Assembly: GCA_029263395.1 (NCBI GenBank) | Contig: JAJCXO010000070.1 | Coordinates: 1-39,867, forward strand | Reading direction: 5' to 3' | DNA length: 39,867 bases | Source: Acidobacteriota bacterium | Lineage (GTDB): Bacteria; Acidobacteriota; Thermoanaerobaculia; Multivoradales; J023 | Shown here: in pieces, positions 1-34,117 of the stretch | Position numbering within the stretch: the first letter of the stretch is position 1 | Layout: every line of letters starts with the position of its first letter | Translations under genes and position numbers: made by a program | Notes under the pieces: generated by a model | Told to the model about the DNA's origin: nothing | What the model saw: only the letters and a program-made list of their open reading frames with translations | The model's database searches: none

Positions 1-1405
1 GGATGGTGCCCTTGACCTTGCGACCGTCGGGGGCATCACCACCCTTGGTGGCTGGGTCGTAGGTGCAGCGCAGCTCGACAATCTCGCCGTTGTCATCCCG
101 CACCACATCGACACAGCGAATGAGGTAGGCGTATCGCAGCCGCACTTCTTGGCCCGGGGAGAGGCGGAAGTAGCCTGCCGGTGGATCTTCTTGAAAGTCG
201 TCACGTTCGATGTAGATGACCCGCGCGAACGGGATCTTACGCGAGCCTTCTTTGGGCACGTCGTGGGGATAATACGGTGCCTCGAGCTCCTCGCCGCTCC
301 CTTCTGGGTAGTTCTCGATCACCACCCGCAGGGGGCGTAGGACACACAAAACGCGGGGCGCCTGGGTGTTGAGATCCTCGCGGATCGCAAACTCGAGCTG
401 CGCGATGTCGATCACGTTGTGGGTTTTGGCGATGCCAATGCGGTTGCAGAAGTTGCGGATCGACGCCGGAGTGTAGCCGCGCCGTCGATAGCCCGAAAGC
501 GTCGGCATACGCGGATCGTCCCAGCCTGAGACGTGACCCTCTTGCACCAATTGCAGCAGTTTGCGCTTGCTCATTACGGTGTAACTGAGGTTGAGACGGG
601 CAAATTCGATCTGCTGTGGATGGTTGGGGACCGGTGTGTGGTCGATCACCCAATCGTAAAGCTCGCGGTTGTTCTCGAATTCCAAGGTGCACAGCGAGTG
701 CGTGATGTCTTCGATCGAGTCGGACAGGCAGTGGGTGAAGTCGTACATTGGGTAGATGCACCAGGCGTTACCGGTTCGGTAGTGATGAGCCCGTCGGATG
801 CGATAAAGGATCGGATCCCGCATCAACATGTTGTTGGCCGCCATGTCGATTTTGGCGCGCAAGACTTGGGTGCCGTCTTCGAACTCGCCGGCCCGCATGC
901 GAGCAAAAAGATCGAGGTTTTCTTCGACCGACCGATTCCGGTAAGGACTCTCGCGCCCGGCCTCGGTCACCGTGCCACGGTATTCACGGATGTCGGCGCT
1001 GCTCAAGCTGCCGACATAGGCTTTACCCTCGCGGATCAGGTGGACGGCGTATTCGTAGAGCTGCTCGAAGTAGTCTGAGGCATGAAATTTGGCGTCCCAT
1101 TCGAAACCCAGCCAACGGATGTCGCGCTCCATCGCCTCGACGTATTCCATGCTCTCGGTGGTGGGATTGGTGTCGTCGAAACGCAGGTGGCAGGTGCCGC
1201 CGAAGTCTTTCGCGATGCCAAAGTTGAGACAGATTGACTTGGCATGTCCGATGTGGGGGTAGCCGTTGGGCTCTGGGGGGAAGCGCGTGACCACTCGGCC
1301 GTCGTTCTTGCCGGCCGCCAGATCGCTGATGATTCGTGCGCGGATGAAATCTGTCGGTGCGGCGGTCTTCTTGCCACCTGCGGGCGGGTCGTGCGGTGTC
1401 GTCAC
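1..1405 (-). CDS. glnS: Glutaminyl-tRNA synthetase, C-terminus cut by window edge
   Basis: Charges tRNA-Gln with glutamine (class I aminoacyl-tRNA synthetase, cytoplasm). The frame is open from a GTG at 1405 to the left edge, giving 468 residues; the family is about 550, so roughly the last 80-90 are outside. Seen directly: RFPPEPNGY then HIGH at residues 51-54, LRFDDTNP just after, [22 protein letters not shown], the KMSKS-type motif VMSKRKL near residue 277, then [18 protein letters not shown], a signature that separates GlnRS from GluRS. The visible end, DGRKVKGTI, matches the C-terminal beta-barrel region. I chose GTG 1405 because GAGG lies 9 bases upstream and the N-terminus then aligns with the family (PTDFIRARI). 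No frameshift is seen. It is downstream of the HNH operon on the same strand, with a 117-base gap, so it is probably a separate unit. Confidence 0.95.
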
Positions 1406-1435
1406 GCTGGCATACCTCAGTCAAAAGTAGTTCAG

Positions 1436-1457
1436 GCGGACGTTGGGGATCGTCCGC
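1436..1457 (-). terminator. Hairpin between HNH gene and glnS
   Basis: Perfect 7-bp stem (GCGGACG with CGTCCGC) around an 8-base loop, 31 bases upstream of the glnS start and 66 bases past the HNH stop. On the minus strand it is followed by a weak T-rich stretch (ACTACTTTTG). It could terminate the HNH transcript or be part of the glnS leader; the sequence does not decide. Confidence 0.35.
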
Positions 1458-1522
1458 GAACGAGCGAAACTTCTCGGAAGCGGTAAAGATACGTAACCAT
1501 CAGGGTTAAGTCTAGGTCTGCG

Positions 1523-2509
1523 TTACGAGTCTCGCACGTCCAGCAGGTCGGCGGGGTTCATACCGAGGGCGGCCAGGTCGGCAAGATCACCGGTAGAGTG
1601 GGCGCCGCGGACCAGTTGACGTTTGAGGGCGAGATAGGGTGCGGTAGGCGCCATCCGTGACTCCAGGCGGTCGAACTCGCGTTTCAGCTGGCGCTCTTTA
1701 CGGGTGATCTTGGCAAGGTTGGACTCTTCGATCGCCTCCGTCAGATCAAGGGCTGCATCGCAGACGGTTTCGAATTGTAAGGTCAGCTCGAGAGCCTCTT
1801 CTTTGCGGGCGTCCACTAGCCCCTTGCGCTGGAGAGCGAAGACGCGAATGGAGGTTTCGGCCTTGGCGCTTGCCGCACCAGCGATCTTGGCCGGTTTGAT
1901 CAGTCCGTCTTCGGTGAAGCGCAGGTGTTGCTCGGTATCGCTGTCGAGGCAGGGATTGAGCAGCAGTCGATACGGTTCCTCCTGGGCCAGGTCTTCGTCA
2001 TGGTGCCGTACTCGGTGGTTTTCGTCGGACAATGGGAATTGGGTCAACTTGCCCATTTTGACCTTGCCGTCGACCCCCGGCGTCTCGTGCTTCTGGGACC
2101 GATTGCAGAAGATGCAAGACAACAGCAGGTTGTCCCAATTGGCGGCTAGCCAGTAATAACCCGGCCGCAGGATACTCGTTCCGGTATCGACTTCACCTTT
2201 TGGCCGAAAATGCTCGATGTCTTGGGGTGCGACGGCATCAAAACAACTCTCACAATAGGCGCACTTGTTGCGGAACACTTGCTTCAGTGCCTCGACGACG
2301 TTCGAGTTGTTGTAGACGCTGAAGCGTTGTTTCTCTCGGGTGAGCTTCTGTTCGTCGCGGTAGTTGGCAGGGTCGGTGAAGAAGGCGATTGCCTTCTCGG
2401 TTTCTTCCTCGGCGCGGGTGACCGGTGTGACGCCGTCGAGTGCTTTCCTTGTCTTCTTGGTAAAGAGGTCGGGGGCAGGTACCTCGGTCGTGCGCGGGAC
2501 GTGGATCAT
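1523..2509 (-). CDS. Stand-alone HNH endonuclease, Septu PtuB-like
   Basis: Predicted nuclease of 328 residues. The zinc/HNH core is complete: C83-A-Y-C86, then D97-I-E-H100-F-R-P-K, then W125-D-N-L and C132-I-F-C135-N136. This Cys-pair plus EHF-P arrangement is that of the PtuB/TIGR02646-type HNH family found in Septu and retron-associated defence modules, where His acts as the general base. The N-terminus (MIHVPR, then LFTKKT) resembles that of the upstream fused protein (MIFVDR, then IFTSKR), so the two HNH parts probably arose by duplication. The C-terminal half is charged and helical, with no recognised domain. It starts 51 bases after the fusion gene on the same strand, so the two are likely cotranscribed. 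No good ribosome binding site is visible. Function in defence is inferred from the neighbour; the nuclease fold call is strong. Confidence 0.82.
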   Translation of the reverse strand: MIHVPRTTEVPAPDLFTKKTRKALDGVTPVTRAEEETEKAIAFFTDPANYRDEQKLTREKQRFSVYNNSNVVEALKQVFRNKCAYCESCFDAVAPQDIEHFRPKGEVDTGTSILRPGYYWLAANWDNLLLSCIFCNRSQKHETPGVDGKVKMGKLTQFPLSDENHRVRHHDEDLAQEEPYRLLLNPCLDSDTEQHLRFTEDGLIKPAKIAGAASAKAETSIRVFALQRKGLVDARKEEALELTLQFETVCDAALDLTEAIEESNLAKITRKERQLKREFDRLESRMAPTAPYLALKRQLVRGAHSTGDLADLAALGMNPADLLDVRDS

Positions 2510-2560
2510 GGCGTGAGGTCACGGTAGGTGGATGACTGGCGGGTGGGGCTCACTACGAGG

Positions 2561-4942
2561 TCAAGGCGTTGTGGAGTCAGGTCTTGTGGAGTCAGGTCTT
2601 GTGGAGTTAGGTCTTGTGGAGGTAGAGCCTGAGAACTTGGACTTCCAGAGCTTGGCGATGCGGTCCACCGCCTCTTGCTTGACGTCATCCATCGTCCGTT
2701 CGGGTCGACGATGACGCTTGTCAGCGAGCAACTTGTCGATCACCTCGTACATCAGCTCTTCCCGAGGTGTGGCGCCGAGGTGTTGGCGGTCAGCAAGTTC
2801 CCCTTTGAGCTCCTCGAGCCGCTCCTGTTGGGTGGCATTGGGAGCTTCGAGAGCAAGGAGCTGGTAATACTCGTTGAACGCCTTTTCGGTGTCCGGATCC
2901 ATCGCGCTGTGCAAGCCGAAAAACTCCGACGTCAGCAATTGGTCGACCCGGAAGTCGTTGGGTGATGGCAGATCGGTGACGGTCTGGACGTTACCGTCGG
3001 TCGAGCGCTTCATCAACACGACCTGGCCCTGCTCGAGACCCCGCAGGCAGAGTGGTTCGTGGGTGGTGACCAGGAATTGCAGGCCGGGAAACGTCTGTCG
3101 CAGTTTTTCGATGATCTGCATTTTCCACCGCGGATGCAGGTGGACGCCGATTTCGTCGATCAGGACAATGCCTTCGGCATCCTCGATCGATGGCCACTTT
3201 GCGGTCAGCACCATCATGATGTCGAGAGTCAACGCCAGCACGGACTGGTAGCCGTCACTCATCTCCTCTAGGCGCTGACTGGAGCCACCAAGTTTGACCA
3301 ACACCCGCCCACGCTGTCTTCGGATCGAGTCGGTTGCAGGATCGAGTAGTAGCAAATCCATCAGAGCGTCACGGACCATGCCGAACTGTTCAGCTGGGAC
3401 CTTCTGGATATCCCCCAACCATTTTTCGACGTGGTTGAGCTTCTCGTATGGATTGAAGAGGTTCTGGATTCGGATCAACCGGCGTTCACGATCCGTCGTC
3501 ACCTCGTCGGTCCAACGCCGCAGCAGTCGGGTGGCACCATAACCGAGGATCAGCACTTTTGGACCGCTACTGGTCGAGCGGAAGTCGACTTGTTTCTTCG
3601 AGAAGGTCAGCTCTATCGGTGGCAGGTTGGTCAGATGCACCTGGACGGAGCCATGCTCCGCATCTTTGTTGACGTATTCTCGTGCGTCGAGGCGAAGGTC
3701 GGCCCGTTCCTTGTCGCCCATCAATGCGAGAGCAATCGCCTTGAGGACGGTGCTTTTGCCGGTGGAGTTTTCACCGATCAAAGCCAACCACGAGCTGTCA
3801 ACCCCGGAACCTTGACCAAGCTCGAGCTCGAGATGGCGGATCACCCGAAAGTTGTTAATGACCACCTTCTCGATGCGCTTGAGACTGCCGAAGTACCTCT
3901 CCCGGGACGCTTTGGTCGTGTCATAAACCGAGTAGTCCGCCTTGGAACGAGCCTTGACTGGGCGCTTCTGGCGGGCAGACCTGCTAGGCTGAGCATCTTT
4001 GGTTTCGCCTACCGCTGCTGATGCTTTCGGCGGTGCATCGTCGGGAGAGCCCGGTGACCGGAAGGATTCCCCGGCACTCGAGGGCTCGGCTTCGATCGAT
4101 AGGCTGAAGGCTAGGTCGATGCGGTCCACAATTGCGGCGAGCCTGAGGCTGGCGATCAGGCCCGGGAAACGAGCATCCAGTTCCGCCCCATGGCGTTGAA
4201 AGAAAATTTCCGCCTGCGCTCGTTTCATGCCCAGGAAGGGACTGTCGTCGTCGAGCGAGCTGCGGATACTGCGCTCGATCGTTGGTTGGGCTGGAGCTGC
4301 TGTATTGACCAGACTGTGCTCCAGCAGCAGCTGAAACTTTTCCCATTCTCCGAACCGGCGTCGGCGCAGGTCCGCTCGATTCAGCCCCAGAATCTCGATG
4401 CTGACTTTGCCGCGTTTGGTCTCCGGGACCATCGCGACCTCTTGGAGCGCCGGGTCGTCGACATAGTAGAAATGCATCTCCTCGAAGTCTCGGGTGAGGC
4501 ACGGGTCGAGCAACAGGGCCTCTTCATTCGCCACCTGACCGCCATATTGCAGCCGCGACCCGTGGACCGGGAAGCGGTTGCGCTTGTAGGTGCGGTTGCA
4601 CTGAGCGCAGGCAAGGTAGAAGTTCGACCATTCGAAAGCCAACCACCAATAACCGGGGGCCATTTTGCCGTCGAGGTTGATCGCCCGCGAAAGCGGTCGA
4701 AACAGCTCGATATCACCGTCACGGCGGGTTGGTAGCTGGGTCTCACAATACGCACATTTGTGGTGGAAGAGACGATGTAATTCAGGTCGGACCCGATTGT
4801 AGAACTTGGTGTTTCGGGTCGGCTTGTTTTGCCCTGCAGAGGCCTCGAGGTTCTGGTCCCGTGCCTCGGCTCGCCAGGCGTCCATGCGTTTGGACGTAAA
4901 AATCGATGGTTCCGGGAGCGCCCGCCGGTCGACGAAGATCAT
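2561..4942 (-). CDS. Fused pseudo-HNH / AAA ATPase, Septu PtuB-PtuA-like
   Basis: A 793-residue fusion. Residues 1-130 are a PtuB-like HNH domain: C63-A-Y-C66, D77-I-E-L80-F-R-P, Y98-W-W-L-A and C112-A-Q-C115-N116. The His expected in the EHF motif is Leu (codon CTG), so this domain probably cannot cut DNA but could still bind zinc and fold. Residues about 280-350 are a Ser/Pro/Lys-rich linker. Residues 357-690 are an ABC-like AAA ATPase of the PtuA/OLD-like group: Walker A G390-ENSTGKS, signature-like MSDGYQS at 561-567, Walker B IVLIDE ending at D596-E597, then HLHP, and the switch His in VTTHEP (H628). The tail carries four 5-residue repeats. The start lies one base after the upstream stop codon, so translation may be coupled. 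Septu systems pair an ATPase with an HNH nuclease; here a separate intact HNH gene follows. Anti-phage function is inferred. Confidence 0.8.
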   Translation of the reverse strand: MIFVDRRALPEPSIFTSKRMDAWRAEARDQNLEASAGQNKPTRNTKFYNRVRPELHRLFHHKCAYCETQLPTRRDGDIELFRPLSRAINLDGKMAPGYWWLAFEWSNFYLACAQCNRTYKRNRFPVHGSRLQYGGQVANEEALLLDPCLTRDFEEMHFYYVDDPALQEVAMVPETKRGKVSIEILGLNRADLRRRRFGEWEKFQLLLEHSLVNTAAPAQPTIERSIRSSLDDDSPFLGMKRAQAEIFFQRHGAELDARFPGLIASLRLAAIVDRIDLAFSLSIEAEPSSAGESFRSPGSPDDAPPKASAAVGETKDAQPSRSARQKRPVKARSKADYSVYDTTKASRERYFGSLKRIEKVVINNFRVIRHLELELGQGSGVDSSWLALIGENSTGKSTVLKAIALALMGDKERADLRLDAREYVNKDAEHGSVQVHLTNLPPIELTFSKKQVDFRSTSSGPKVLILGYGATRLLRRWTDEVTTDRERRLIRIQNLFNPYEKLNHVEKWLGDIQKVPAEQFGMVRDALMDLLLLDPATDSIRRQRGRVLVKLGGSSQRLEEMSDGYQSVLALTLDIMMVLTAKWPSIEDAEGIVLIDEIGVHLHPRWKMQIIEKLRQTFPGLQFLVTTHEPLCLRGLEQGQVVLMKRSTDGNVQTVTDLPSPNDFRVDQLLTSEFFGLHSAMDPDTEKAFNEYYQLLALEAPNATQQERLEELKGELADRQHLGATPREELMYEVIDKLLADKRHRRPERTMDDVKQEAVDRIAKLWKSKFSGSTSTRPNSTRPDSTRPDSTTP
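2569..2628. repeat. Four 15-bp tandem repeats at the 3' end of the fusion gene
   Basis: Units start at 2569, 2584, 2599 and 2614 (plus-strand TTGTGGAGTCAGGTC and variants). The reading frame keeps phase, so each unit adds the pentapeptide S-T-R-P-D/N to the C-terminal tail. The stop codon follows two codons later. Unit-number changes would lengthen or shorten the tail without a frameshift. Confidence 0.85.
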
Positions 4943-4943
4943 G

Positions 4944-6236
4944 TTAGAGCACCACCGAGGCTCGCAGTCCCTGGCGAGCGGCCCGCCGATGTTTCTGCAA
5001 CTGGGCCAGCCCTGCGAAGCCTGTCAAAGCGACCAGCGTCAGGATACCGATCCAGGAGGGAGCAGGCAGAACCCTGACCGCCGGGATACGAAAGATATCG
5101 TTGCTGCCTTTGCCTGCCAGGTAGACCGTCCCGGTGGTGCCGACCGCGATACGGACCGCGCCAGCCAGGGGGTGATCGTCGCCATCGCCGCTGGCATCGA
5201 TGATTTGGGAGATTACGCCGGTCGGAGTGATCCGAAAGGCGTTGTGGCTGGTTTCCCCTGCGACGTAGACGTTGCCGTCGGCGTCGACCGTGATGCCGAG
5301 AGGCCCGGCGAGAGGGTGCTGGTCGCCATCGCCGTCTTGGTCGATGATTACGGTAACGGTGTTAGCGCCTCCGGGATCGGTGATCTTGAAAACGTTGTGG
5401 CTCCGGTAACCAGCGACGTAGACATGCCCCTCACCATCAACCGCTATGCCAGCCGCACCTTGTAAAACCCGGCCGACATCATCGCCGGAGGCGCCGAGGA
5501 TCTCAGTGATGTTGCCATCGGAAGTGATCCGAAAGACGTTGTGGCTTTCTGCGGCAGCGATGTACACCGTGCGCTCGGCGTCGACGGCGATACTCTGCGG
5601 CGCGAGCAGAGGACGCCCGGCACCATCGCCGGTGTGGTTGATGATTTCGGCAATCGAGCCGTCGGTCGCGATCTTGAATGCGTTGTGACTCGCGTGCGCT
5701 ACGACATAAACGTTGCCCGCCACATCAACAGCCAAGTCGGCTGGCCCCAACAGAGGGTTGCCCTGGCGGTCGCCGCTGGCGTCGATGATTTCGGTAAGAC
5801 TGCCGTCGGGGCTGACTTTGAAGACATTGTGACTGGCGCCACCGGCCACATAAACATTTCCCGCTTGGTCGATGGCGATACCTGTCGGTTTCTTGAGCCG
5901 GTGGCCGGCACCATCACCCTCGGCGTCGATGAGCGTGCTGATCGTCCCGTCGGGTGCGATCTTCAATGCGCGGTGACTTTGATCCGCCGACACGTAGACG
6001 TTCTCCGCAGCATCAATCGCGAGGCCGTGGTCCAGTGCCAACGGCTGTTTCGGCGCTGGGGTGTCGTGCGGGTGGAGTGGCTGCCCGACCACGGACCCTG
6101 TTGCGACTGCCTGCAGCAGAGATAGTGCTAGCACCAGGGACCTGGCGAACAGGTAGTCGCGAGCCAGGGCCTTGTGCCGGGCGAGGTGCGGCGTGCGTCG
6201 AAGCTGTCGGGCTGTCGCCACTCTCGATAGGATCAC
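4944..6236 (-). CDS. Exported NHL-like beta-propeller protein with C-terminal membrane anchor
   Basis: A 430-residue protein with a signal-peptide-like segment near residues 28-50 (LFARSLVLALSLLQAVATG). Seven repeats of about 48 residues follow, with the pattern G-I-A-V-D, G-N-V-Y-V-A-G, S-H-N-x-F-K-I, D-G-x-I-x-E-I-I-D, G-D-G; the last repeat is partial. This is typical of NHL/SMP-30-like propellers. The C-terminus has a short Pro-containing motif, a hydrophobic segment and a basic cluster (LPAPSW, ILTLVALTGFAGLA, KHRRAARQ), the three-part layout of PEP-CTERM/IPTL-CTERM-type sorting tails, though I cannot assign a named class. Ligand unknown. It starts with GTG at 6236; a second GTG at 6221 is possible, and neither has a clear ribosome binding site. 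Its stop is one base from the Septu-like fusion start, which suggests one transcript. Confidence 0.75.
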   Translation of the reverse strand: MILSRVATARQLRRTPHLARHKALARDYLFARSLVLALSLLQAVATGSVVGQPLHPHDTPAPKQPLALDHGLAIDAAENVYVSADQSHRALKIAPDGTISTLIDAEGDGAGHRLKKPTGIAIDQAGNVYVAGGASHNVFKVSPDGSLTEIIDASGDRQGNPLLGPADLAVDVAGNVYVVAHASHNAFKIATDGSIAEIINHTGDGAGRPLLAPQSIAVDAERTVYIAAAESHNVFRITSDGNITEILGASGDDVGRVLQGAAGIAVDGEGHVYVAGYRSHNVFKITDPGGANTVTVIIDQDGDGDQHPLAGPLGITVDADGNVYVAGETSHNAFRITPTGVISQIIDASGDGDDHPLAGAVRIAVGTTGTVYLAGKGSNDIFRIPAVRVLPAPSWIGILTLVALTGFAGLAQLQKHRRAARQGLRASVVL

Positions 6237-9664: not shown

Positions 9665-10882
9665 ATGGGAAGGCGAGCCAAGAGTTTAGAGGCCGCCGCA
9701 ACGTTTCGCAGCTGGGATGTCGGGCGTAACGATGCGGTTTCTCTGTGCTTGTGTCTGGTTGTTTGCTTTGGCTTTGTCGTCGGTTGTAGCGGGCGGGACA
9801 CGGCGCCGGCAGAGATCCGAATCGGATTTCTCTTCGACGAGCCCTCTTCGATTGCCCGTGTCACTCGCGAAGCTGCTGACCTGGCAGTGGCGGCGATCAA
9901 CGCCGCGGGCGGCATCGAAGTGGATGGACGGGCTCACAAGGTGGTCATGGTGGTTGGGGACACCGACAACACTCCCGAGGGCGCAACCCGTGCCAGCCTC
10001 GAGTTGATCAATCGAGAGCAGGTGGTCGCCATTGTCGGTTCGAGCTTCAGCCGCAATGCCATCCCGGCTGGCGGGGTTGCGGAACAGGCCGGTATCCCGA
10101 TGATCTGTCCGGGATCCAGCAATCAGCAAACGACGTTGGACAGAAACTTCGTCTTCCGGGTCACCTTCGTCGACGCCTTCCAGGGCCGTGTGATGGCGCG
10201 GTTTGCCCGCAGTGAGCTCGGCCTGGCGACTGCGGCGGTGCTCTATGATGTCGCGGATACCTATAGCCGTGACATCGCGATGGTGTTCAGTCAGGATTTT
10301 GAGGACTCTGGTGGAGAGGTGTTGGCCTTCGAGGCGTTCACCACCGGTGACCAAGATTTTGTCCCCGCTCTCGAGCGCATCCGCGAAACCGAAGTCGAGG
10401 TTCTCTTCCTGCCCAACTTCAGGGTTGAAGTTGTCTTACAGGCGCAACAGGCCCGCGCCTTGGGGATCGATGCGGTGCTTCTGGGCGGCGACGGCTGGCC
10501 GTCGGAGAAGCTGAAGATTCCTGAGGAGCTCGAAGGCGCCTTCTTCTCCCTTGCTTGGCATCACGCCATGGCGTCGGTGAATCTCGAAGCTGCAGAGTTC
10601 ATCGAGAGTTATCAGGATACCTTCGGTATGGCTCCCGAAGATCTGGCGGCAATGACCTATGACGCATTCGGTCTGCTGTTCGATGCTGTTGCCACCGCCT
10701 CGAGCGTTGACCCGATGGATATCCGCGATGCGTTGGCCCAGACCGAGGGTTACCGAGGAGTGACCGGCCCGATCACCTTTCGTGGCACCGACGGCGATCC
10801 CCGTCGGAGTGCAGCGATTGTTCAGATACGAGACCAAAGTGTTCATCTTTTCAAAACAGTGGACGCGGAGCTGACGCCGTGA
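9665..10882 (+). CDS. Substrate-binding lipoprotein, branched-chain amino-acid type (copy 1)
   Basis: A 405-residue periplasmic-binding fold of the Peripla_BP_6/LivJ-like group. The n-region is long, then the hydrophobic stretch ends in lipobox V38-V-G-C41, so it should be a lipoprotein. The mature part begins with EIRIGFLFD and shows the family pattern AADLAVAAINAAGGI, then VVAIVGSSFSRNA, AEQAGIPMICPGSS, FVFRVTFVDAFQGRVMA, AAVLYDVADTYSRD, and a C-terminal DALAQTEGYRGVTGPITF. Such proteins bind small molecules, often amino acids, amides or urea, and feed an ABC permease or act as receptor modules. No permease or ATPase gene is nearby. Its stop codon overlaps the GTG start of copy 2 by 4 bases, so the two are translationally coupled. 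Confidence 0.88.
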   Translation: MGRRAKSLEAAATFRSWDVGRNDAVSLCLCLVVCFGFVVGCSGRDTAPAEIRIGFLFDEPSSIARVTREAADLAVAAINAAGGIEVDGRAHKVVMVVGDTDNTPEGATRASLELINREQVVAIVGSSFSRNAIPAGGVAEQAGIPMICPGSSNQQTTLDRNFVFRVTFVDAFQGRVMARFARSELGLATAAVLYDVADTYSRDIAMVFSQDFEDSGGEVLAFEAFTTGDQDFVPALERIRETEVEVLFLPNFRVEVVLQAQQARALGIDAVLLGGDGWPSEKLKIPEELEGAFFSLAWHHAMASVNLEAAEFIESYQDTFGMAPEDLAAMTYDAFGLLFDAVATASSVDPMDIRDALAQTEGYRGVTGPITFRGTDGDPRRSAAIVQIRDQSVHLFKTVDAELTP

Positions 10883-12060
10883 GCTGCAACAAGAGGCGTT
10901 GGCTGCAGCAGGCGTCTGCGGTGTTCGCCAGTCTTGCGGTGTTTGCCAGTTTTGCGGTGCTCGCCAGTCTTGCGGGCTGCGGTCCGGGGGATCCGCCAGC
11001 TGTGGTCCGCATCGGCGTGTTGGCGAAGCTCAGTGGTACGGCTGGGCAAGTCACAACCGAGGCGGCTCGGTTGGCGGTCGAGTCGGTCAACGCTGCTGGC
11101 GGCCTCGAGATCGATGGCCGGCGACATCGGGTCGAACTCCTTTTCGAAGATACCAACGCAGCCCCGAATCAAGCGATCGCTGGCGCCCGGCGACTCATTC
11201 AGCAGCAGGTTGTCGCTATCGTCGGTCCCAACCGTAGCCGGGACGCGATTGCCGCTGCTCGGGCTGCGCAAAATGCCAGAGTACCGATGATCAGCCCCAA
11301 TTCGACTCATCCTGAGACCACGGCTGGTTTACGGTATTCCTTTCGGATGACCTGCACAGATGCCTTTCAGGGACAAGCGCTGGGCCGTTTTGCGGCCGAA
11401 ACCCTGGGCGCCACCTCGGCCGCGGTGCTCTACGATGTGGCGAGTGCCTACAATCAGAGCCTTGCAACAGTCTTTCGACAGGCTTTTGAAGGTGCGGGTG
11501 GCAAGGTAGTGGCGTTCGAGAATTATACCACCGATGAATCGACCTTCGAAGAGCAGCTCGGGCGCATCCGCGACCTACAGCCACAGGTCCTCTTGCTGCC
11601 CAACTACCAAGAGGAGATCCCAGTCCAGGCTCTACAAGCCCGTGCGTTGGGAGTCGAAGCCATCCTGCTGGGAGGTGACAGCTGGGCCTTGATGCCATTT
11701 GCTGAATTGCCCCAGCTCGAGGGTGCCTTCTTCGGTCTACATTGGCATCCTGCCCAGACCGAAACCAATCCTCTCGCTCGTGACTTTGCGATTCTGTTTC
11801 GTGAAGCTTATGGGCATGATCCGACAGATCTGGCGGCGCTGATTTATGATGCTTTCAGCGTCCTCTTCGATGCCATTGAACTTGCTGGGCCCGATCCAGA
11901 CAAGATTCATCAAACGCTAGAAGACCTCGAGGGTTATCGTGGGGTGACCGGCTTGATCAGTTACCGCGGCACGGAGGGTGATCCTCCCAAGGCACTGATC
12001 ATCGGCCAGGTAAAACAGGGCGAGGTTGTCCTGTATGAAGAGGTTGAGCCGTTGCCATAG
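10879..12060 (+). CDS. Substrate-binding lipoprotein, branched-chain amino-acid type (copy 2)
   Basis: A 393-residue paralogue of the preceding protein, similar over its whole length (VRIGVLAKLSGTAGQ, then LAVESVNAAGGLEIDG, VVAIVGPNRSRDAI, NARVPMISPNS, DAFQGQALGRF, AAVLYDVASAYNQ, GYRGVTGLISYRGTEGDP). The signal peptide ends in lipobox L31-A-G-C34. Its hydrophobic core is built from three 6-residue repeats (V-F-A-S-L-A and variants). The GTG start overlaps the previous stop (GTGA). The tandem arrangement is clearly a gene duplication; the divergent ligand-side residues suggest different ligands or a heteromeric receptor, which is inference. It converges on the large sensor kinase gene at 12170. 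Confidence 0.88.
   Translation: MSCNKRRWLQQASAVFASLAVFASFAVLASLAGCGPGDPPAVVRIGVLAKLSGTAGQVTTEAARLAVESVNAAGGLEIDGRRHRVELLFEDTNAAPNQAIAGARRLIQQQVVAIVGPNRSRDAIAAARAAQNARVPMISPNSTHPETTAGLRYSFRMTCTDAFQGQALGRFAAETLGATSAAVLYDVASAYNQSLATVFRQAFEGAGGKVVAFENYTTDESTFEEQLGRIRDLQPQVLLLPNYQEEIPVQALQARALGVEAILLGGDSWALMPFAELPQLEGAFFGLHWHPAQTETNPLARDFAILFREAYGHDPTDLAALIYDAFSVLFDAIELAGPDPDKIHQTLEDLEGYRGVTGLISYRGTEGDPPKALIIGQVKQGEVVLYEEVEPLP
10921..10974 (+). repeat. Three 18-bp tandem repeats inside a signal peptide
   Basis: Units at 10921, 10939 and 10957 (GTGTTCGCCAGTCTTGCG and near copies) encode V-F-A-S-L-A, V-F-A-S-F-A and V-L-A-S-L-A. They form the hydrophobic core directly before the lipobox Cys at 10978-10980. 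Confidence 0.9.
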
Positions 12061-21115: not shown

Positions 21116-21137
21116 GTTGTCGCGACAACGCTATGAT
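21116..21137 (+). promoter_or_regulatory. Candidate operator palindrome plus -10 element
   Basis: A perfect 14-bp palindrome, GTTGTCGCGACAAC (21116-21129), is followed two bases later by TATGAT (21132-21137). A palindrome in the -35/-10 spacer is a usual repressor position. It would put the transcription start near 21144, which favours the GTG start at 21196 for the downstream gene. Confidence 0.45.
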
Positions 21138-21195
21138 GAACGACACAGTTCGAAGAGTCCCAGCTATGGCAGGCGATCGAACGTGGAGTGCGGAT

Positions 21196-24100
21196 GTGAT
21201 CTATCGTGTTGTTGTGACGTTGACTGGGTTGCTGATGGCAGGAGCCGCTGTTCTGCTGCCTGTCGAAACCATCAGGGCTACCCCCACGACTACCGAGATC
21301 CCAATCAGCGGCTATGTCCTGGCGCCGGATGGTGAGCCGCTGTCCAAGGCTGATGTCGTCCTCGAGCCCATCCCCTCCACTTATGAGCGTGCTCGTTTGC
21401 GACTGGCCGGGCTTGTCGGGCCGGAGCCGGTGGCGCTTACCCAGACCGATGCCGACGGCGCTTTCCAACTGGGTGCACCCTCTGCCGGGATGTGGAAGGT
21501 GGTGGTCTCCTCCCCGACGTTGCTGACGATGGAGCGTCGGCTACTGCCGTTGGTTGCGGAGATGGTGCTGCCGCCGGTTGAGATGATGCCGAAGTCAGAG
21601 CTCGAAGTTCGGGTGGTTGACCGGCAAGGCAAGCCACGCCCTGGGAGAGTTGGCGCCTACGCGTTCAGTGTGCGCTACGAGAGGGTCCGCAATGAAGGCT
21701 GGCGTCCTCGGATACGCCTGGCGACCGCTGGCGACGACGGCCTCGCTCGCCTGCCGTTGGGGCGCGACGAGGAGATCCAGCTCGAAGTGCTGGCCGAGGG
21801 GTATCCCTTGGTGGTGACTGAGGTATCCAAAGCGAAACCCGTCATCGTCGAGCTACCGATCGGTGCTGCCGGTACGGTGAGGGCTATCGGCCGCAAGAAT
21901 CGGCCACTTCGAGCGGCGATCGTCCTCCAGGGCAGCTTCGTCTTGCCGCTCGGCTTGACCAATGACGAAGGACGCCTCGACTTGGTGGTGCAGGCTGACG
22001 AGCCGGACCCGATCCAGGTTTTCACTGCGGATCGCTGGAGCGGATCGTTGGTACCCGATCTCGATGCCGTCGAGATCCAAGACCTTCGACTCGATCCGCC
22101 AAAGACTGTGTTTGGCCGAATCCTAGATCTTACGACCCGTGAGCCGATCGCCGGGGCTTTGGTATGGGCAGTCCAGGGTCAAGTCGCGGTGACCGATAAG
22201 CAAGGTAGTTACGAGCTCGCGGTCGACCTGGTCAAGCCTCATCGGATGGGAGCGGCGGCCGCTGGGTATCTGCGCGACTACGCGCAGATGAGCCATTCAG
22301 CAGAGCCCGAATCCCTTGCGATTGGGCTGGCTCCAGCCGCCGCGGTGTTGAGTGGCAAGGTACGCGATGCGACCGGGGCGGTGCTCGGGGGCGTCATGAT
22401 CACTGTTCGACCCAAACCACGGAGTGGCCAGCAAGCTTTAGCGGTCCAGTATGCGATAGCCCGTGGCTGGCAAACTCGGACCTCCGACCGTGGCACATTC
22501 CGAGTGCCGGGCTTACCGGCTCACATGGCGTTCGGGATGACCTTACAAGCGGCAGGTTTTGCTGCTCACAGCTTTACCATCGAACCTCTCGAACCCTTCG
22601 AGCGACGGGCCGATCTCGAAGTTGTGATGTCGCCCGCACGGCATGCTGTCGGCTGGGTGGTTGACGAGGACGAGGTGCCGATCGCCGGTGCCGCAGTGAG
22701 TTTGGTGGCACCCCCGCTCACCAACGACCTGCAGGCCAGGAATTGGATCAGTAGGCGTCAGGACGATGGCCAGCTTCCGACGGTGCTCACCGATCAAGAC
22801 GGACAATTCGAGATGTCTGATCTTGCGGCGGGATATTACGATCTCGAGGTGGCAGCGAGTGGTTATGCGCCATCCCGTATCCCTGGTGTCCAGGTCCTTG
22901 AGATGACGGGAGATGATGCAACGAAGTCCGTCGATCTTGGCGTGGTTGTGATGGTTCCGGGGGTGTCGGTCGAAGGCCGAGTGGTCGATCTCGACGGTGC
23001 GGCGCTTCACGATGCCAAGATCCAAATCAAGCGACCAGGGAGTTCGAACTACGGCGCCCCGCGGAGCGCCCGGGAGCCGTTGGCGACCGGCCCTGAGGGG
23101 CGTTTTGTCGCGCCCGACCTGAACCCTGGACGACTGATCTCGATCTTGATCAGCAAGTCAGGGTTCGTTTCCAAAACGGTGGAGGAGGTGCAACCGCCAA
23201 CCATAGAGCCGCTGACCATCATTCTGCAGCCGGCCGGGCGTCTACGAGGGCGAGTGGTCGATCAACAAGGTGATCCACAGCCCAACTCGGACATTTATAT
23301 GCGACTGGACTCGCGGTCCAACGTGTTGTTCGGCGGCTCTCAACGCTGGAGTCAACTGAGGCATACCTCGACCGACGCCGACGGTCGTTTTCTGATCGAG
23401 GAAGTGGAACCTGCAACCTGGTGGGTGGCCGCCAGGAGCAAGGGGTATCAGCTGCTTGTGGAGGAAGGCGTCGAGGTACAAGCGGGGGCCACCACCGATT
23501 TGGAGCTTGTGCTCGAGGTTGGGGCAGTGGTAGAAGGCACAATCCTGACGGCCGATGGTGAACCCTTGACACAAGCCTCCATCAGTATTGCGGAGGCCGA
23601 AAACCTCTCAAGCAGGCAATCGGGCACGGTAAGCAGCTTGGCTGATGCGGAGGGCCACTACCGGGCGGTGGGCGTTCCGGTCGGTCTTGCGACGGTGACT
23701 GTTTTCCAAAATTCGACCCGGCGTTTGGGGAAGAGTATCGAGGTGCGTCCAGGGACAAATGTTGTCGACCTGCTGCTCGAGTCCGGCTTTGAGATAGGCG
23801 GTCAGGTGGTGGCGCCAGATGGGACTCCGATCGGTGATGCTGCGGTGACCCTCGACGTCGACCCCGAACGTCGGACGAGCCGTTCGCCATTCAACTCGTC
23901 GCGAGACCAGACTGCCGCGGATGGATCGTTTGTTTTTGCTGATGTCGTGGCTGGGGCCTACCGGCTCACCGCGTCGCGGGACGACTTTGCTCCAGCAAGC
24001 ACCGAATCTTTCGAGGTGGCAAGCGATGTGGCGGGTCTGGTGCTGCAGCTCGGCCTGGGCGCTACTCTGAAGGGGCGTATCGTGGGTCTCGAGATCGACG

Positions 24101-25344
24101 AGCTTGGCGTCTTGGAGTTGACGGCCTACAGCCGGCAAAGTGGGCGGGCGGCTCGAGTGCTGGCACCAGGTGACTATCAATTCGATCAACTAGCGGCTGG
24201 CGTTTGGCACCTGCGGGCGGAGGTGAAGGGCTCGAGCCGCTCATTGGCGCTCACGGTCGACATCCCGGAGGGGGTCACCGAGGTGGTCAGGGATATCGAA
24301 TTTGGGCCCACGCTCACGCTTCGTGGCATCGTGCTCGATAACGATCGTCCGGCAGCAGGTGTTGGTGTCAGCGTCAGTGGTGCCGACTCGAGCTCGGGAT
24401 ACGACCAGACCGATTCCGACGGGCGTTTCCGCATCGGCAACCTGCCGGCAAACCACTACACGGTGATGGTCTCGGCGGGCATGGGAGCCAGAAAGGCCGA
24501 GGAGCTCGAGCTGACTGGTGACCACGAGTTGCGCATCGACATCGCGACCGGTGCCCTGAATGGGGTGGTGCGAAGCGCCATCGACGGTGAGCCTGTGTCC
24601 GGGGTGGGCATCGCCTTTGCACTGCTCGATCGCAGCGATCCGGCCGAGGCTCGGCGCAATAGCCTCAGCGAGCGGATGACAACCGACGCCCGGGGAGGGT
24701 TCGGCGTGGCTCGGATCCGTCCGGGCCGTTGGCGGCTGGTCGCCTCCAAATCAGGGTACGCGCCCAGTGAGGTGGTGGTTGCTATCGCTGCCGAGGGAGT
24801 CTCGGATGCTGAAATCCAGCTGACGCCCACGGAAGGCGTGAGTTTTGAAGTTTCGTTGGCATCAGGTGCTGAGGCAACGTGGGCCCGCGTCTCGATCCTA
24901 GATGCCTCCGGGCGTCACTTCAGCGGTGGTAGTTACCCTATCGTCGAAGGCCGAGTGCACGTGCCGACGGTGCCGTCGGGACGCTGGGAGCTGGTGGTCC
25001 AAGTTGGCGACAGCGCCGCGACCCGCGTGGTAGTCGATTCGCCAGGAGATCAAGGGCGAATCTTCTTGCCCACCAGCGGCAGGCTGTCGCTCAGTGTTCC
25101 CGAGCTTGCAGCGGAGCCTTGGGCTCTGGTCTTCCTCACCGGGCCGGATGGCAAGCCGCTGGTTCATGTTGGCGGTTCGGCGTTCGATCCTGGAGCCTGG
25201 CCCCTGATATCGGGGCAAGCGTCGGTGCCCAGCCTCGCACCAGGGGTTTGGACCCTTATCGTGGAACATGATGGTCGCACTTGGAACGGCAGCGCGACGG
25301 TGGTGGCTGGCAGGACGTCTGAGGCCGCAGTCGTTAGTCGTTAG
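21196..25344 (+). CDS. Exported multi-unit carboxypeptidase-regulatory-like (Cna-B type) protein, copy 1
   Basis: About 1382 residues. A signal peptide (IYRVVVTLTGLLMAGAAVL) is followed by about 13 beta-sandwich units of some 80-110 residues. Each is marked by V-x-G-x-V-x-D-x-x-G-x-P-L-x-x-A-x-V opening strands and by DADGxFxLxxLxxGxYxLxVxAxGY phrases, the pattern of carboxypeptidase regulatory-like/SdrD-B-like folds. No catalytic domain and no C-terminal anchor are visible, so it is probably secreted or surface-associated scaffold or adhesin material; function is unknown. I chose GTG 21196 because GGAG lies 8 bases upstream and the start aligns with that of copy 2 (YRV); ATG 21133 is an in-frame alternative but overlaps the candidate promoter. 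Its 3' end overlaps the protease gene on the other strand by 11 bases. Confidence 0.8.
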   Translation: MIYRVVVTLTGLLMAGAAVLLPVETIRATPTTTEIPISGYVLAPDGEPLSKADVVLEPIPSTYERARLRLAGLVGPEPVALTQTDADGAFQLGAPSAGMWKVVVSSPTLLTMERRLLPLVAEMVLPPVEMMPKSELEVRVVDRQGKPRPGRVGAYAFSVRYERVRNEGWRPRIRLATAGDDGLARLPLGRDEEIQLEVLAEGYPLVVTEVSKAKPVIVELPIGAAGTVRAIGRKNRPLRAAIVLQGSFVLPLGLTNDEGRLDLVVQADEPDPIQVFTADRWSGSLVPDLDAVEIQDLRLDPPKTVFGRILDLTTREPIAGALVWAVQGQVAVTDKQGSYELAVDLVKPHRMGAAAAGYLRDYAQMSHSAEPESLAIGLAPAAAVLSGKVRDATGAVLGGVMITVRPKPRSGQQALAVQYAIARGWQTRTSDRGTFRVPGLPAHMAFGMTLQAAGFAAHSFTIEPLEPFERRADLEVVMSPARHAVGWVVDEDEVPIAGAAVSLVAPPLTNDLQARNWISRRQDDGQLPTVLTDQDGQFEMSDLAAGYYDLEVAASGYAPSRIPGVQVLEMTGDDATKSVDLGVVVMVPGVSVEGRVVDLDGAALHDAKIQIKRPGSSNYGAPRSAREPLATGPEGRFVAPDLNPGRLISILISKSGFVSKTVEEVQPPTIEPLTIILQPAGRLRGRVVDQQGDPQPNSDIYMRLDSRSNVLFGGSQRWSQLRHTSTDADGRFLIEEVEPATWWVAARSKGYQLLVEEGVEVQAGATTDLELVLEVGAVVEGTILTADGEPLTQASISIAEAENLSSRQSGTVSSLADAEGHYRAVGVPVGLATVTVFQNSTRRLGKSIEVRPGTNVVDLLLESGFEIGGQVVAPDGTPIGDAAVTLDVDPERRTSRSPFNSSRDQTAADGSFVFADVVAGAYRLTASRDDFAPASTESFEVASDVAGLVLQLGLGATLKGRIVGLEIDELGVLELTAYSRQSGRAARVLAPGDYQFDQLAAGVWHLRAEVKGSSRSLALTVDIPEGVTEVVRDIEFGPTLTLRGIVLDNDRPAAGVGVSVSGADSSSGYDQTDSDGRFRIGNLPANHYTVMVSAGMGARKAEELELTGDHELRIDIATGALNGVVRSAIDGEPVSGVGIAFALLDRSDPAEARRNSLSERMTTDARGGFGVARIRPGRWRLVASKSGYAPSEVVVAIAAEGVSDAEIQLTPTEGVSFEVSLASGAEATWARVSILDASGRHFSGGSYPIVEGRVHVPTVPSGRWELVVQVGDSAATRVVVDSPGDQGRIFLPTSGRLSLSVPELAAEPWALVFLTGPDGKPLVHVGGSAFDPGAWPLISGQASVPSLAPGVWTLIVEHDGRTWNGSATVVAGRTSEAAVVSR

Positions 25345-28300
25345 CTTCAGAACACGGTAAATTGGTGCAATCGAAAGTGATTACCGCGGTGCCGTTGGCG
25401 CCCAAGGGATCGGTAACCTCTAGCTCGACCCGATACGGGACATTCGGCGTCGGAGCATAAAAGAAGGCATTCGGTAGGGTGTGGTTGAAGATCGCAAATT
25501 CGATATCCAACGGACGCCAGTGATAGGTGAGCGCTGCTCCTTCCGGGTCGATGCTGGCACTGCCATTGAGTTCGACGAGACCCCGATCGACCCTCGAAAC
25601 AAACGTGGCAGTCGCCACCGGCGGGGCGTTGGGGTTCACCGTCAGGTCGACCCCAGTGCTGTCCACGCCACCGCGGCCGTCCTCGACTGTCACTTCGAAA
25701 CTGAGGACCGTTGATGATGCCACCGTCGGTGCAGTGAGCTGTGCCACCGCGGTGGCCGGATTCGAAAGGGACACCCCTGGCCCGGCCTGTTGGATCCATA
25801 GGTAACTCAAGGGATCGCCGTCTGGATCGCTACTCATGGTGGCGTCGAGAGACACGGTCTGCCCGGTGGTTGCCGAGGTAGGCATGGCGACAGCAGCTGC
25901 CACCGGTGGTGCGTTGGGCTCTACGCCATCAAGCTCGAGGGCGGCCATCAGTACGCTGCCTGGAAAACCCGAAGTACGATCACGCAGTCGCAAGGTCCAG
26001 GTGCCTGCACCGTTCAAGCCGGTGAGGATGTCAAAATCGCCGTGCGGGGAATGAAGATCGGGGAAGAGGGCGAAGAGCGGCCCAGCCGTGAAGCTGTTGA
26101 CCTCCGCCAGCCGCACCGTGGGCGCGCCGCCGGGGGCGATGAGATCAATCTCGAGGTCGCCCCGACGAAAGTGCGAGATGTCGAGATAGAGACGCGCCGC
26201 GGTCACGGTGCCGAAGCCTGCAATCGGCAAGGGAATCTCCACGCCGGTCGGGTCATCATCGGGGATGACAACTCCCTCGACGGTTTGATCCAAAGGATTG
26301 ACCAACAAGGGGATGTCGGCAACCGCCCGGGTGTAGGTTTGGTCGAGTCCGTGGCTAGAAGCCACCACAAAGCCCTGCACTGGCACCGCTGGGTCGCCGA
26401 CTTCGGTGCCGGCGACCCGCACCTGCCAAAGACCGGCAGCCGGAGCAGCGATCCACACCTGCTCTGTATTGTCCCGGTGGTTGGGAATGATCTTCCCAAA
26501 TCCGCTGCTTTGGACCGCCGAGGCAAAGGGCTGGCCTGGGTTGAGTCGCCACGGGCCGTACCGCATACCGTTGGGTGCAACCAACTCGAGATCGAGATTG
26601 TGGACTAGTTGCCCAAGGGCCGTAGCGCTGCCCATGGGGTCGAGCCAGCCCAGGGTCACTGTCAACGGTCCGCTGCCCGCTGCGACATCGAGGGTCGAGA
26701 TCGTCCAGGTTTCTCCCTCCCGCACCGCACCGCGCACGATGTGGCGCCCCGGACCCGCGACGTCGGCCAGGATCAGATCTGCCGCCGCTTCGACGTCGGC
26801 GATCCCCCAGCCGGTGCGGTAGTCCGGCCCGGTCAGGGTAATGTCCTGTGCGGAGTGCGTGAGCAGGGTACGCACCAGGTCCGGCGCCATGCGCAAACCG
26901 TCGTGCTCGCGTCGGTAGAGCTGCTCGAGCAGCACCACCATGCCGGTCACCGCTGGCGCCGCAAAGGAAGTGCCGCTGACCCAGGCATAACCGTTGTCGC
27001 GAGTGGTGGTGTAAACCCCGCCACTCTTGGCCATGACATCGGGCTTCAGGCGGCCGTCTTGGGTTGGTCCCCAAGCGGTCTCTGGCCACGGCATGCCGCC
27101 CAGGACGACACCTCCCACCACCACATTGTTTTTCAACGTCGAGTCAGCATGGAGCGAACGCGGCGTGTTCGGAGCGCCAAAATTCCCCGCCGCCTTCACC
27201 CCTAACAAGAGATAGTCCCGGGCATCCATGTCGAATAGTTCCGCCTCGAGGTTGTAGCTGTTCGATGGCACCGGATCGGCCGTCCAGGAATGGTTGTCGA
27301 CGGCATGGTAGAGGGATCGGCGATTGTTACGGCGCTCATGCTCTAGGGTGTTGCTGCCGCTGTTTGAGATCGACACTGAGAGCAGCTCAGCCTCCGGCGC
27401 ATATCCGCAGGCCCGCGGGTCGTTCAGCCCCGAACCGAATAGGGTACCCGTGACCTGGGTGCCATGTTCGGCACTGTCACCCGACTGAATCAGGACCCGC
27501 GACATGTCGAAGTCGGGGTGGGGGTGCAGGGTGCCGACATCATAGATCCCCACCCGCACTCCGTCACCGGTGAGCTCATAAGGCACAGCGCGCACCAGGT
27601 CTGCACCGCTCATTTGCCGTGAGCCTTGGTTGAGGCCCACCACGGTTCCGCGTCGATGAATGGCCGCCACAAAGGGCGAGGTGGCCAGCGTGTCGACTAC
27701 CATTGCGTCCGCACCTGGTCGCGACACGTGCCGCCAAGGGCCGACTCGTGCCGTGTCTACCGAGGGTAAGAGCAGGCCTGCCGTAGCCGATGTCCCCACC
27801 ACAGCCTGCAATTCTGCCACTGTGGTTTCGGGCCAGAAGGTGATTTCGACGTCGAGTGCCGCCACATCCTCCGCGGCGGTATCTTCTGTGGCCGTATCTT
27901 CCGCGGTCACTATCGCTGCAACCTCCGGCATGAGCCGATCTGCCGCCAGCACCGACGCTGTGCCTAAGATCTGTGGCATCGCGCCCAGCGTATTGCGTTG
28001 GCCCACGGGATCGTCCGTCGCGACGAGAAAGACATAGGTCCGTCGATCCTGCAACCCCAAGTAGCGCAGGCCACGGTCGGCGAAGGTTGCCAAGTGGTCG
28101 TTGTCGAGGGCTGCGTCGACGAAGAGATAGAAACTCTCCCCCGCAGCCGGCAGCGGCAGGGCGGGATCAGCAAGCACGTCTCGGCCATGCAGGCGCGTGC
28201 CCCCGTCCACCCGTTCCCAGGCCGGACGATCCATAGGTCCGTCCTCCGCCCCCGGCGCTGGCCCGGCCGCTAGCACCAGGACCGGGTGGAGGAGCATGAG

Positions 28301-28357
28301 CAGCAGGCCCGAGACCGCTGTTACCAGCAAGTTTGGATTCCAGTACATTCGTTGCAT
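25334..28357 (-). CDS. Exported subtilisin-family serine protease with P-domain and PKD-like domains
   Basis: A 1007-residue protein. Signal peptide at about 10-31; long propeptide-like region to about 255; S8 catalytic domain with D273 (GIYDVGTLHPHPDF), H298 (AEHGTQVTG), oxyanion N392 (AAGNFG) and S464 (SGTSFAAPAVTG). A jelly-roll region follows, then a proprotein-convertase P-domain (about 690-820; ISHFRRGDLEIDLIAPGG, then GTWTLRLRD). Two PKD/cadherin-like units come next (NAPPVA at each start, then SSDPDGDPLSYLW). It ends at CSEAND with no anchor. The propeptide contains a short Ala/Glu/Asp/Thr repeat. It probably digests extracellular protein. It is flanked by the two large beta-sandwich paralogues: convergent with copy 1 (11-base overlap) and divergent from copy 2, so it might process them, which is inference only. 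Confidence 0.92.
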   Translation of the reverse strand: MQRMYWNPNLLVTAVSGLLLMLLHPVLVLAAGPAPGAEDGPMDRPAWERVDGGTRLHGRDVLADPALPLPAAGESFYLFVDAALDNDHLATFADRGLRYLGLQDRRTYVFLVATDDPVGQRNTLGAMPQILGTASVLAADRLMPEVAAIVTAEDTATEDTAAEDVAALDVEITFWPETTVAELQAVVGTSATAGLLLPSVDTARVGPWRHVSRPGADAMVVDTLATSPFVAAIHRRGTVVGLNQGSRQMSGADLVRAVPYELTGDGVRVGIYDVGTLHPHPDFDMSRVLIQSGDSAEHGTQVTGTLFGSGLNDPRACGYAPEAELLSVSISNSGSNTLEHERRNNRRSLYHAVDNHSWTADPVPSNSYNLEAELFDMDARDYLLLGVKAAGNFGAPNTPRSLHADSTLKNNVVVGGVVLGGMPWPETAWGPTQDGRLKPDVMAKSGGVYTTTRDNGYAWVSGTSFAAPAVTGMVVLLEQLYRREHDGLRMAPDLVRTLLTHSAQDITLTGPDYRTGWGIADVEAAADLILADVAGPGRHIVRGAVREGETWTISTLDVAAGSGPLTVTLGWLDPMGSATALGQLVHNLDLELVAPNGMRYGPWRLNPGQPFASAVQSSGFGKIIPNHRDNTEQVWIAAPAAGLWQVRVAGTEVGDPAVPVQGFVVASSHGLDQTYTRAVADIPLLVNPLDQTVEGVVIPDDDPTGVEIPLPIAGFGTVTAARLYLDISHFRRGDLEIDLIAPGGAPTVRLAEVNSFTAGPLFALFPDLHSPHGDFDILTGLNGAGTWTLRLRDRTSGFPGSVLMAALELDGVEPNAPPVAAAVAMPTSATTGQTVSLDATMSSDPDGDPLSYLWIQQAGPGVSLSNPATAVAQLTAPTVASSTVLSFEVTVEDGRGGVDSTGVDLTVNPNAPPVATATFVSRVDRGLVELNGSASIDPEGAALTYHWRPLDIEFAIFNHTLPNAFFYAPTPNVPYRVELEVTDPLGANGTAVITFDCTNLPCSEAND

Positions 28358-28624: not shown

Positions 28625-28666
28625 GAGTCGAGTCTCTAATCTGTCACTCCATCGCGGGAGGTGGAT

Positions 28667-34100: not shown

Positions 34101-34117
34101 CGGACTCTCCATCGCTA

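Follow-up and report, generated by a model that had tools for sequence, protein, structure and literature searches.

Septu defense systems are typically described as an ATPase gene, ptuA, followed by a separate HNH nuclease gene, ptuB. We asked whether a Septu-like pair in which one HNH domain is built into the ATPase and another is encoded by its own gene possesses two working nucleases, or whether one of the two copies has taken on another role. The pair occupies positions 1523-4942 of a 39,867-nucleotide contig of an Acidobacteriota bacterium (JAJCXO010000070.1, assembly GCA_029263395.1), and this whole stretch is referred to below as the window. An earlier note on this DNA had proposed a Septu-like unit composed of an HNH-ATPase fusion and a separate HNH gene; both open reading frames (ORFs) were recovered at these ends, with matches to the PtuA1 and PtuB1 profiles of PADLOC, and the free protein additionally passed TIGR02646. 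Both genes lie on the minus strand, where the fusion is transcribed first and the free HNH gene follows 51 base pairs (bp) downstream. The pair is quite probably a Septu variant that combines a mostly dead fused HNH with an active free HNH. The features that bear on this question are as follows.

2561..4942, minus strand: ptuA-like gene, N-terminal HNH-like (pseudo-PtuB) domain plus ATP-binding cassette (ABC)-type ATPase, 793 amino acids, ATG start (ORF, PADLOC, Pfam)
1523..2509, minus strand: ptuB-like gene, free HNH endonuclease with intact catalytic residues, 328 amino acids, ATG start (ORF, PADLOC, TIGR02646)
4595..4756, minus strand: zinc/HNH core of the fused domain, CAYCE ... CAQCN, all four Cys present (motif positions, alignment)
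4703..4705, minus strand: Leu80 codon of the fusion, CTG, where an active HNH has its catalytic His; the congener G410 has CAC here (alignment)
2210..2212, minus strand: His100 codon of the free PtuB, in the motif DIEHFRPK (motif position; His in all 42 free proteins)
3752..3775, minus strand: Walker A of the fusion, GENSTGKS, residues 390-397 (motif position)
3245..3259, minus strand: ABC signature of the fusion, SDGYQ, residues 562-566 (motif position)
3149..3163, minus strand: Walker B of the fusion, LIDEI, residues 594-598 (motif position)

Catalytic residues of the fused and free HNH

HNH enzymes use a Glu and a second Asn as metal ligands and a His as the base. In the aligned PtuB-like sequences, the motif is mostly D-[IV]-E-H-x-R-P-K, followed by an Asn and by C-x-x-C-N, and the free protein of the window has all of these residues. 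The fused domain of the window reads DIELFRPL where the free protein reads DIEHFRPK; the His expected of an active HNH is absent, and Leu80 stands in its place, flanked by Glu and Phe.

Residues were counted in an alignment of 32 fused domains and 42 free proteins. The fused set comprises 29 intact fusions, two that are split between frames (L028 and L077), and one that is broken (L094). The free set comprises the partners of the 29 intact fusions, the free proteins of L028, L077, and L080, and 10 proteins from unfused loci; L080 was counted here only, as its ATPase is shortened beside an IS630 element and its free PtuB is intact. Three distant viral HNH proteins (L115-L117) and the free HNH genes of further unfused loci in the large ATPase tree lie outside the 42, and L112, a near copy of L111, was excluded from every count. 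The longer open frame was used where the annotated start sat late or inside the HNH domain (L025, L026, L071, L072, and others). As the Rhizobium rows L032, L071-L074, and L077 are closely related, the counts do not represent independent events.

Among the free proteins, C83, C86, E99, H100, K104, N127, C132, C135, and N136 were present in all 42. The fused domains retained all four zinc Cys in 31 of 32 rows and N127 in every row, and the Arg-Pro of the motif was present in nearly all aligned fused rows. Glu or Asp at position 99 was found in half of them (16/32), N136 in 12, and K104 in 6. A His at the aligned column was recorded for 9 of the 32, including L094 with an uncertain alignment, and its replacements were Arg (n = 14), Gln (n = 5), Leu (n = 3), and Tyr (n = 1). 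The complete catalytic set (E/D, H, N, N) was kept only in L091 (the locus of the congener G410), L092, and L113, and the other 29 had lost at least one catalytic residue. Because the window has lost the His and such losses extend to 29 of the 32 fused domains, the fused HNH is unlikely to be a second working nuclease. The earlier note had correctly recognized a built-in and a free HNH side by side, although it overlooked the altered active site and the two are not equivalent.

A sequencing error behind the lost His was considered unlikely, because the window codon CTG and the congener codon CAC differ by two bases and 23 of the 32 fused domains are without the His. In the distant viral proteins L115-L117, the Glu-His is kept and the Cys pattern is different, as judged by eye. 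The PDB chains 22bv_F and 22bu_F show a His to Ala difference at the catalytic position of the aligned stretch, 22bu_F presumably being a deliberate mutant. In a studied Septu system, PtuB H75 or N91 mutants and PtuA Walker mutants abolish immunity (PMC13096335).

Septu assignment, recurrence, and origin of the pair

We assessed the family membership of both proteins using profile searches. The fusion was matched end to end by PADLOC PtuA1 PDLC00292 (residues 1-768, profile positions 1-717 of 726, E 9e-215), and its N-terminus (residues 1-244) was also matched by PADLOC PtuB1 PDLC00339 (E 1.6e-43). Its C-terminal ATPase matched Pfam AAA_21 (6e-16) and AAA_15 (1.3e-14). The free protein matched PADLOC PtuB1 PDLC00319 (E 6e-98) and had no Pfam match below E 0.1. 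The free protein scored above the curated TIGR02646 cut-off (56.1 vs 52.15 bits) and the fused domain below it (30.5 vs 52.15 bits). The fusion therefore presents the features of a Septu (type I) PtuA, namely the profile match together with Walker A, signature, and Walker B; in an alignment of 12 fusions, G390, E391, N392, G395, K396, and S397 of Walker A were invariant. The free gene presents those of the PtuB, as it adjoins ptuA and has intact catalytic residues E99, H100, N127, and N136. The canonical type I architecture, an HNH-less ATPase with the HNH on a separate gene only, is not that of the fusion, and because of its N-terminal PtuB-like domain we describe the pair as a variant and not as a plain member of Septu (type I).

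The earlier note had named two outcomes that would speak against its proposal: placement of the ATPase in a housekeeping repair family, and absence of the two-gene arrangement from other genomes. Neither was encountered, as the Septu profiles match and the pair recurs elsewhere. The models for repair ATPases all remained below their cut-offs, recN (27.5/407.85 bits), recF (25.3/172), and Rad50 (18.2/1087) by a wide margin and SMC_N at 32.7/40 bits, and a housekeeping repair ATPase was rejected; the fusion did pass the broad Pfam domains AAA_23 (38.2 vs 27 bits) and DUF2813 (22 vs 21 bits). A type I-A retron at the window was also rejected, since the neighboring ORFs include no reverse transcriptase. 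The relatives with known structure are retron and Septu PtuA for the fusion and PtuB for the free protein. In a weak predicted model of the fusion, PtuA chains were among the best fold matches (template modeling scores of approximately 0.2-0.25 on the model); because the models are weak, the structural conclusion is limited to kinship of the ATPase.

To recover relatives, fused-protein and alignment searches covered 396 genomes of the phylum of the window, 148 of its class, 162 of the class of genome G181, plasmids, and genome contigs; the fused-protein searches did not select for a free partner. The plasmid searches returned 39 records, of which 27 were taken into the analysis; nine of the 12 left out look like copies by match length and identity, and NZ_CP006991, NC_018742, and NZ_CP006879 are partial or ATPase-only. 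Each ORF was compared with profiles for the ATPase, the fused domain, and the free PtuB. A free PtuB-like ORF lay immediately downstream, on the same strand, of all 27 intact fusions recovered by fused-protein queries, which rules out a chance neighborhood of fusion and free HNH. The same two-gene arrangement was seen at L111 and L113 on viral contigs; because these were found through an alignment of the free PtuB itself, their pairing was selected for and they were counted apart. In 26 of the 27, the earliest start available to the free ORF overlaps the fusion stop or falls within 3 bp of it, the exception being the window with its 51 bp; in G410, the likely free start lies approximately 40 bp downstream of the first possible one, as judged by eye. 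The recurrence that the earlier note had asked about is well borne out.

The hosts include Rhizobium, Sinorhizobium, Roseovarius, Paracoccus, Phaeobacter, Sphingomonas, Gluconobacter, Klebsiella, Janthinobacterium, Pseudomonas, Priestia, and Kordia. Within the phylum sample, the distribution was patchy, with an intact fusion in at least 3 of 396 genomes (G000, which is that of the window, G181, and G238); two candidates were scored per genome, so fusions may be missed in this count. The class search added an intact fusion in G410, of the same genus as the window. Genome contigs contributed at least seven loci, at least four of them fusions, and of 37 plasmid records with matches, fused and unfused together, 18 were conjugative and 7 mobilizable. 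Fusions were present on two distinct viral contigs. A search of viral contigs with the fusion alone returned no relative, and the search with the fusion alignment returned at least 12 weakly matching loci, with no fusion among the matches listed. In L028 and L077, the fused gene is split between frames and the free PtuB is kept; in L094, the fused gene is broken and no free gene was detected on a contig that ends approximately 0.8 kb past the broken ORF. It was also noted that the genome of the window carries a second, unfused Septu-like pair (G000:C190:1-3500, L098), the PtuB-like ORF of which runs off the contig end.

In the ATPase tree, a single branch separated 24 fused from 23 unfused rows (support 100/99; present in 100% of bootstrap trees). 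The unfused rows represent 19 distinct loci, nearly all from the phylum of the window, and the near-copies L026, L071, L072, L073, and L078 were left out. Two smaller trees with other unfused rows agreed on the fused clade, and in one of them the rows that carry an unfused label within that clade belong to fusions that are split or truncated (L028, L077, and L080). Because the fused ATPase parts form one side of a supported branch, a single origin of the fused ATPase within the sample is well supported. The term distinct subtype used in the earlier note is reasonable for the same reason, as the fused ATPases are one clade. When mapped on the ATPase tree, loss of the His required 6 changes, 4 of them forced by well-supported branches, compared to 10.9 with shuffled labels; this pattern fits several losses, and regains are possible.

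The fused domain is under purifying selection. The ratio of nonsynonymous to synonymous substitution rates (dN/dS) was 0.13 for the fused domain of the pair L032/L071 (dS 0.50; ATPase 0.09, free PtuB 0.12), 0.13 for L073/L072 (dS 0.66; ATPase 0.05, free PtuB 0.08), and 0.14 for the window and G410 (dS 1.49, which is high; ATPase 0.11, free PtuB 0.11). Four further pairs, with saturated or infinite fused-domain dS, were not used. Because the low-dS Rhizobium pairs already have Arg in place of His, the dead form itself is maintained in that cluster. The ATPase and the free PtuB are co-inherited, their distances being correlated (0.72; 0.39 without near-copies), and 0 of 2000 permutations was as high in each case.

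Role of the fused domain

From these comparisons we infer an anti-phage activity, a nuclease target, and a platform role for the fused domain. Multimers of the PtuA ATPase would control the free PtuB, as in other Septu systems, and permit its action upon phage infection. Cleavage of nucleic acid would then fall to the free PtuB alone, with phage DNA or a tRNA as the target, as for the Septu-type systems already studied. The fused pseudo-HNH may be a permanent structural partner, one per ATPase chain, that holds the free PtuB, and a docking or gating platform is our tentative assignment for it, held a little short of an even chance. PtuA outnumbers PtuB in known complexes, so the sites left vacant in them would be filled or reshaped by a PtuB-like fold on each chain. 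Titles in the PDB give PtuA:PtuB complexes of 4:2 and 2:1. One review describes a PtuA hexamer with two PtuB and calls the activation signal of PtuAB unclear (PMC12198126), and both DNA and tRNA are reported as targets of PtuAB systems (PMC11555353, PMC13096335). More broadly, we consider the chances evenly balanced that the locus belongs to a Septu branch with a single origin in the ATPase tree, in which the fused nuclease copy was switched off repeatedly, kept its fold, and now serves as a regulator or dock, at an N-terminal slot of PtuA that also accepts TIR and SIR2 domains.

Several observations weigh against this reading. The congener G410 is among the three intact fused domains, so the fused copy is not dead throughout and the loss in the window is recent; moreover, in 8 of the 32 fused domains the preceding position is occupied by a His, a conceivable substitute. 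In the HNH tree, calculated without L094 and L028 among the fused rows and L087 among the free ones, the fused and free labels required 3 changes compared to 21.5 when shuffled, and one change sufficed in 0% of 200 bootstraps. The fused domains of the window and G410 and those of L024-L026 were placed among free ones. Because the fused HNH domains form no one group, a single duplication is not shown; domain exchange or long-branch pull could account for the mixing. The low-dS pairs all come from one Rhizobium cluster, and their fused-domain ratio exceeds that of the ATPase (0.13 vs 0.09 and 0.05). Divergence is also faster in the fused domain than in the ATPase or the free PtuB (mean distance 1.77, compared to 1.38 and 1.31 for the other two parts), and its distance correlation with the free PtuB is weak without near-copies (0.26; 4 of 2000 permutations as high). 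The predicted single-chain models are weak (predicted local distance difference test scores of 65.6 for the free PtuB and 56.3 for the fusion), and the free PtuB model had no PDB match at E <= 0.001. Both proteins scored below the cut-offs of the NCBIfam retron Ec78 equivalogs NF041760/NF041761 (fusion 124.3/500 bits, free protein 64.5/150 bits). The operon is flanked by genes for a Glu/Gln-tRNA synthetase and an NHL-repeat protein, neither of them a defense gene, and no phage assay for the fused clade was found in the literature searched.

Some of these observations could be explained in other ways. Were both HNHs to cut, with a fused site rearranged around the earlier His or another residue, the pair would represent a double-nuclease Septu. 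The three fully intact domains (L091, L092, and L113), which include the nearest relative of the window, the displaced His, and the near-universal zinc Cys are consistent with such a system, but the window itself has Leu with Glu and Phe beside it, 20 of the 32 fused domains have lost N136 and 26 have lost K104, compared to none of the 42 free proteins, and mutation of the PtuB His or Asn abolishes the studied Septu as cited above; we regard a double nuclease as improbable. The same retention of the zinc Cys, of Asn127 in every row, and of Arg-Pro in nearly all would also be expected if the fold or a surface of it were used without cutting, for instance as a nucleic-acid clamp that captures substrate for the free PtuB and is no protein dock. 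Lys104, which we guess to be a contact residue, is nevertheless lost from most fused domains while every free protein keeps it, and a clamp appears fairly unlikely.

The rapid divergence of the fused domain, the loss of its catalytic residues through different substitutions (L, Q, R, Y), and the split or broken fused genes of L028, L077, and L094 would suit a remnant of an ancient fusion that is decaying and now serves no function. This is very improbable given the dN/dS of 0.13-0.14 in the usable pairs, the conserved zinc Cys, and a long reading frame that is kept in hosts as distant as Rhizobium, Priestia, and Kordia. It was also considered that the operon could have components in common with Septu but serve housekeeping, or act in the manner of a toxin-antitoxin unit, and not defend against phage. 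Its tRNA synthetase and NHL-repeat neighbors, the congener that keeps the unit beside the same NHL gene, and an operon base composition like that of the surroundings all fit this explanation; the full-length Septu profile matches, the patchy distribution in the phylum, and the relatives on conjugative and mobilizable plasmids and on two viral contigs do not, and we find it distinctly improbable. The broader reading of a repeatedly switched-off nuclease copy would, if true, describe a widespread Septu branch with a pseudonuclease inside a bacterial immune complex. A branch whose every ATPase bears a mostly switched-off PtuB copy offers a natural experiment on the retention and release of PtuB, and its fused domain may show where such a fold can be accommodated without cleavage.

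Known systems and neighboring genes

Septu type I (PDB 8eea, 8ee4, and 8sux) likewise has an ABC-type ATPase gene followed by a TIGR02646-type HNH gene. It differs in that the PtuA of unfused loci is without an HNH, whereas the fused clade carries a PtuB-like domain on every ATPase chain. The fusion architecture is not new to databases, because the full-length PADLOC PtuA1 profiles PDLC00292, PDLC00288, and PDLC00291 (726, 733, and 773 positions) likewise span HNH and ATPase; all 10 fused proteins tested matched at least one of these long profiles over nearly their whole length. The view in the earlier note that Septu is known as separate ptuA and ptuB was accordingly not quite right with respect to databases. 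These profiles are filed as PtuA1 with the description AAA ATPase domain, which mentions no fusion, lost site, or subtype. The accessible part of the PADLOC paper names the retron form as Septu type II and no fused type (PMC8565338). The accessible literature yielded no account of a Septu HNH that is fused and has lost catalysis, most subscription papers lying outside this coverage. The architecture itself had already been collected, with no remark on it. For annotation, we suggest that the HNH residues of a long PtuA1 match be checked before a second nuclease is counted, and that a free PtuB be sought beside it.

The effectors of type I-A retrons (Ec78/Eco7 and Ec83; Septu type II) are a PtuA/PtuB pair related to the present one in sequence and fold. 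They add a reverse transcriptase and multicopy single-stranded DNA, neither of which was found beside the window pair. Among the fused pairs at annotated plasmid loci, a reverse transcriptase gene lies near two, L025 and L082. That of L082, on a Priestia megaterium plasmid (5976-6989), is a retron St85-family reverse transcriptase on the opposite strand, approximately 200 bp past the fused pair, and is a possible retron link of the fused clade. Other domains were also encountered before PtuA. The TIR-PtuA of L041 (G454; TIR Pfam 2.2e-15) and the SIR2-PtuA of L052 (G456; SIR2-like 4.1e-14) likewise have a PtuB-like gene downstream, but carry a TIR or SIR2-like domain and no HNH copy and fall outside the fused-HNH clade; the L052 ORF begins right at the edge of its locus and could be truncated. 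A general slot for added domains may exist at the N-terminus of PtuA.

The fusion of the window additionally ends in a repetitive tail that is missing from the fusion of the congener G410.

2569..2621, minus strand: 15-bp tandem repeat, 3.5 copies, coding the STRPD-type C-terminal tail of the fusion

A promoter-like scan of positions 1350-5300 returned 0 sites, equal to shuffled sequences. The stop of the upstream NHL-repeat gene lies 1 bp before the fusion start in the window (position 4943), compared to 367 bp in the congener (L091 5248-5614), and this difference indicates an upstream deletion in one of the two or an insertion in the other. In six annotated plasmid loci (L071, L072, L074, L075, L077, and L088), the Septu pair is followed by a gene for a patatin-like phospholipase, five of these loci being of the fused clade, including L077 with its split fused gene, and one unfused (L088).

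Elsewhere in the window, a DarT/DarG pair at 33054-34771 (DarT Pfam 5.9e-62; PADLOC DarG 9e-138 and DarT 4e-64) is a second known defense or toxin-antitoxin unit. Two adjacent periplasmic-binding-protein genes of the Peripla_BP_6 family at 9665-12060, which overlap by 4 bp and are 45% identical, are a tandem duplication. Two very large proteins (21133-25344 and 28661-32782), 50% identical, possess approximately ten carboxypeptidase-regulatory-like domains each, and a subtilase gene (25334-28357) lies between their genes on the other strand.

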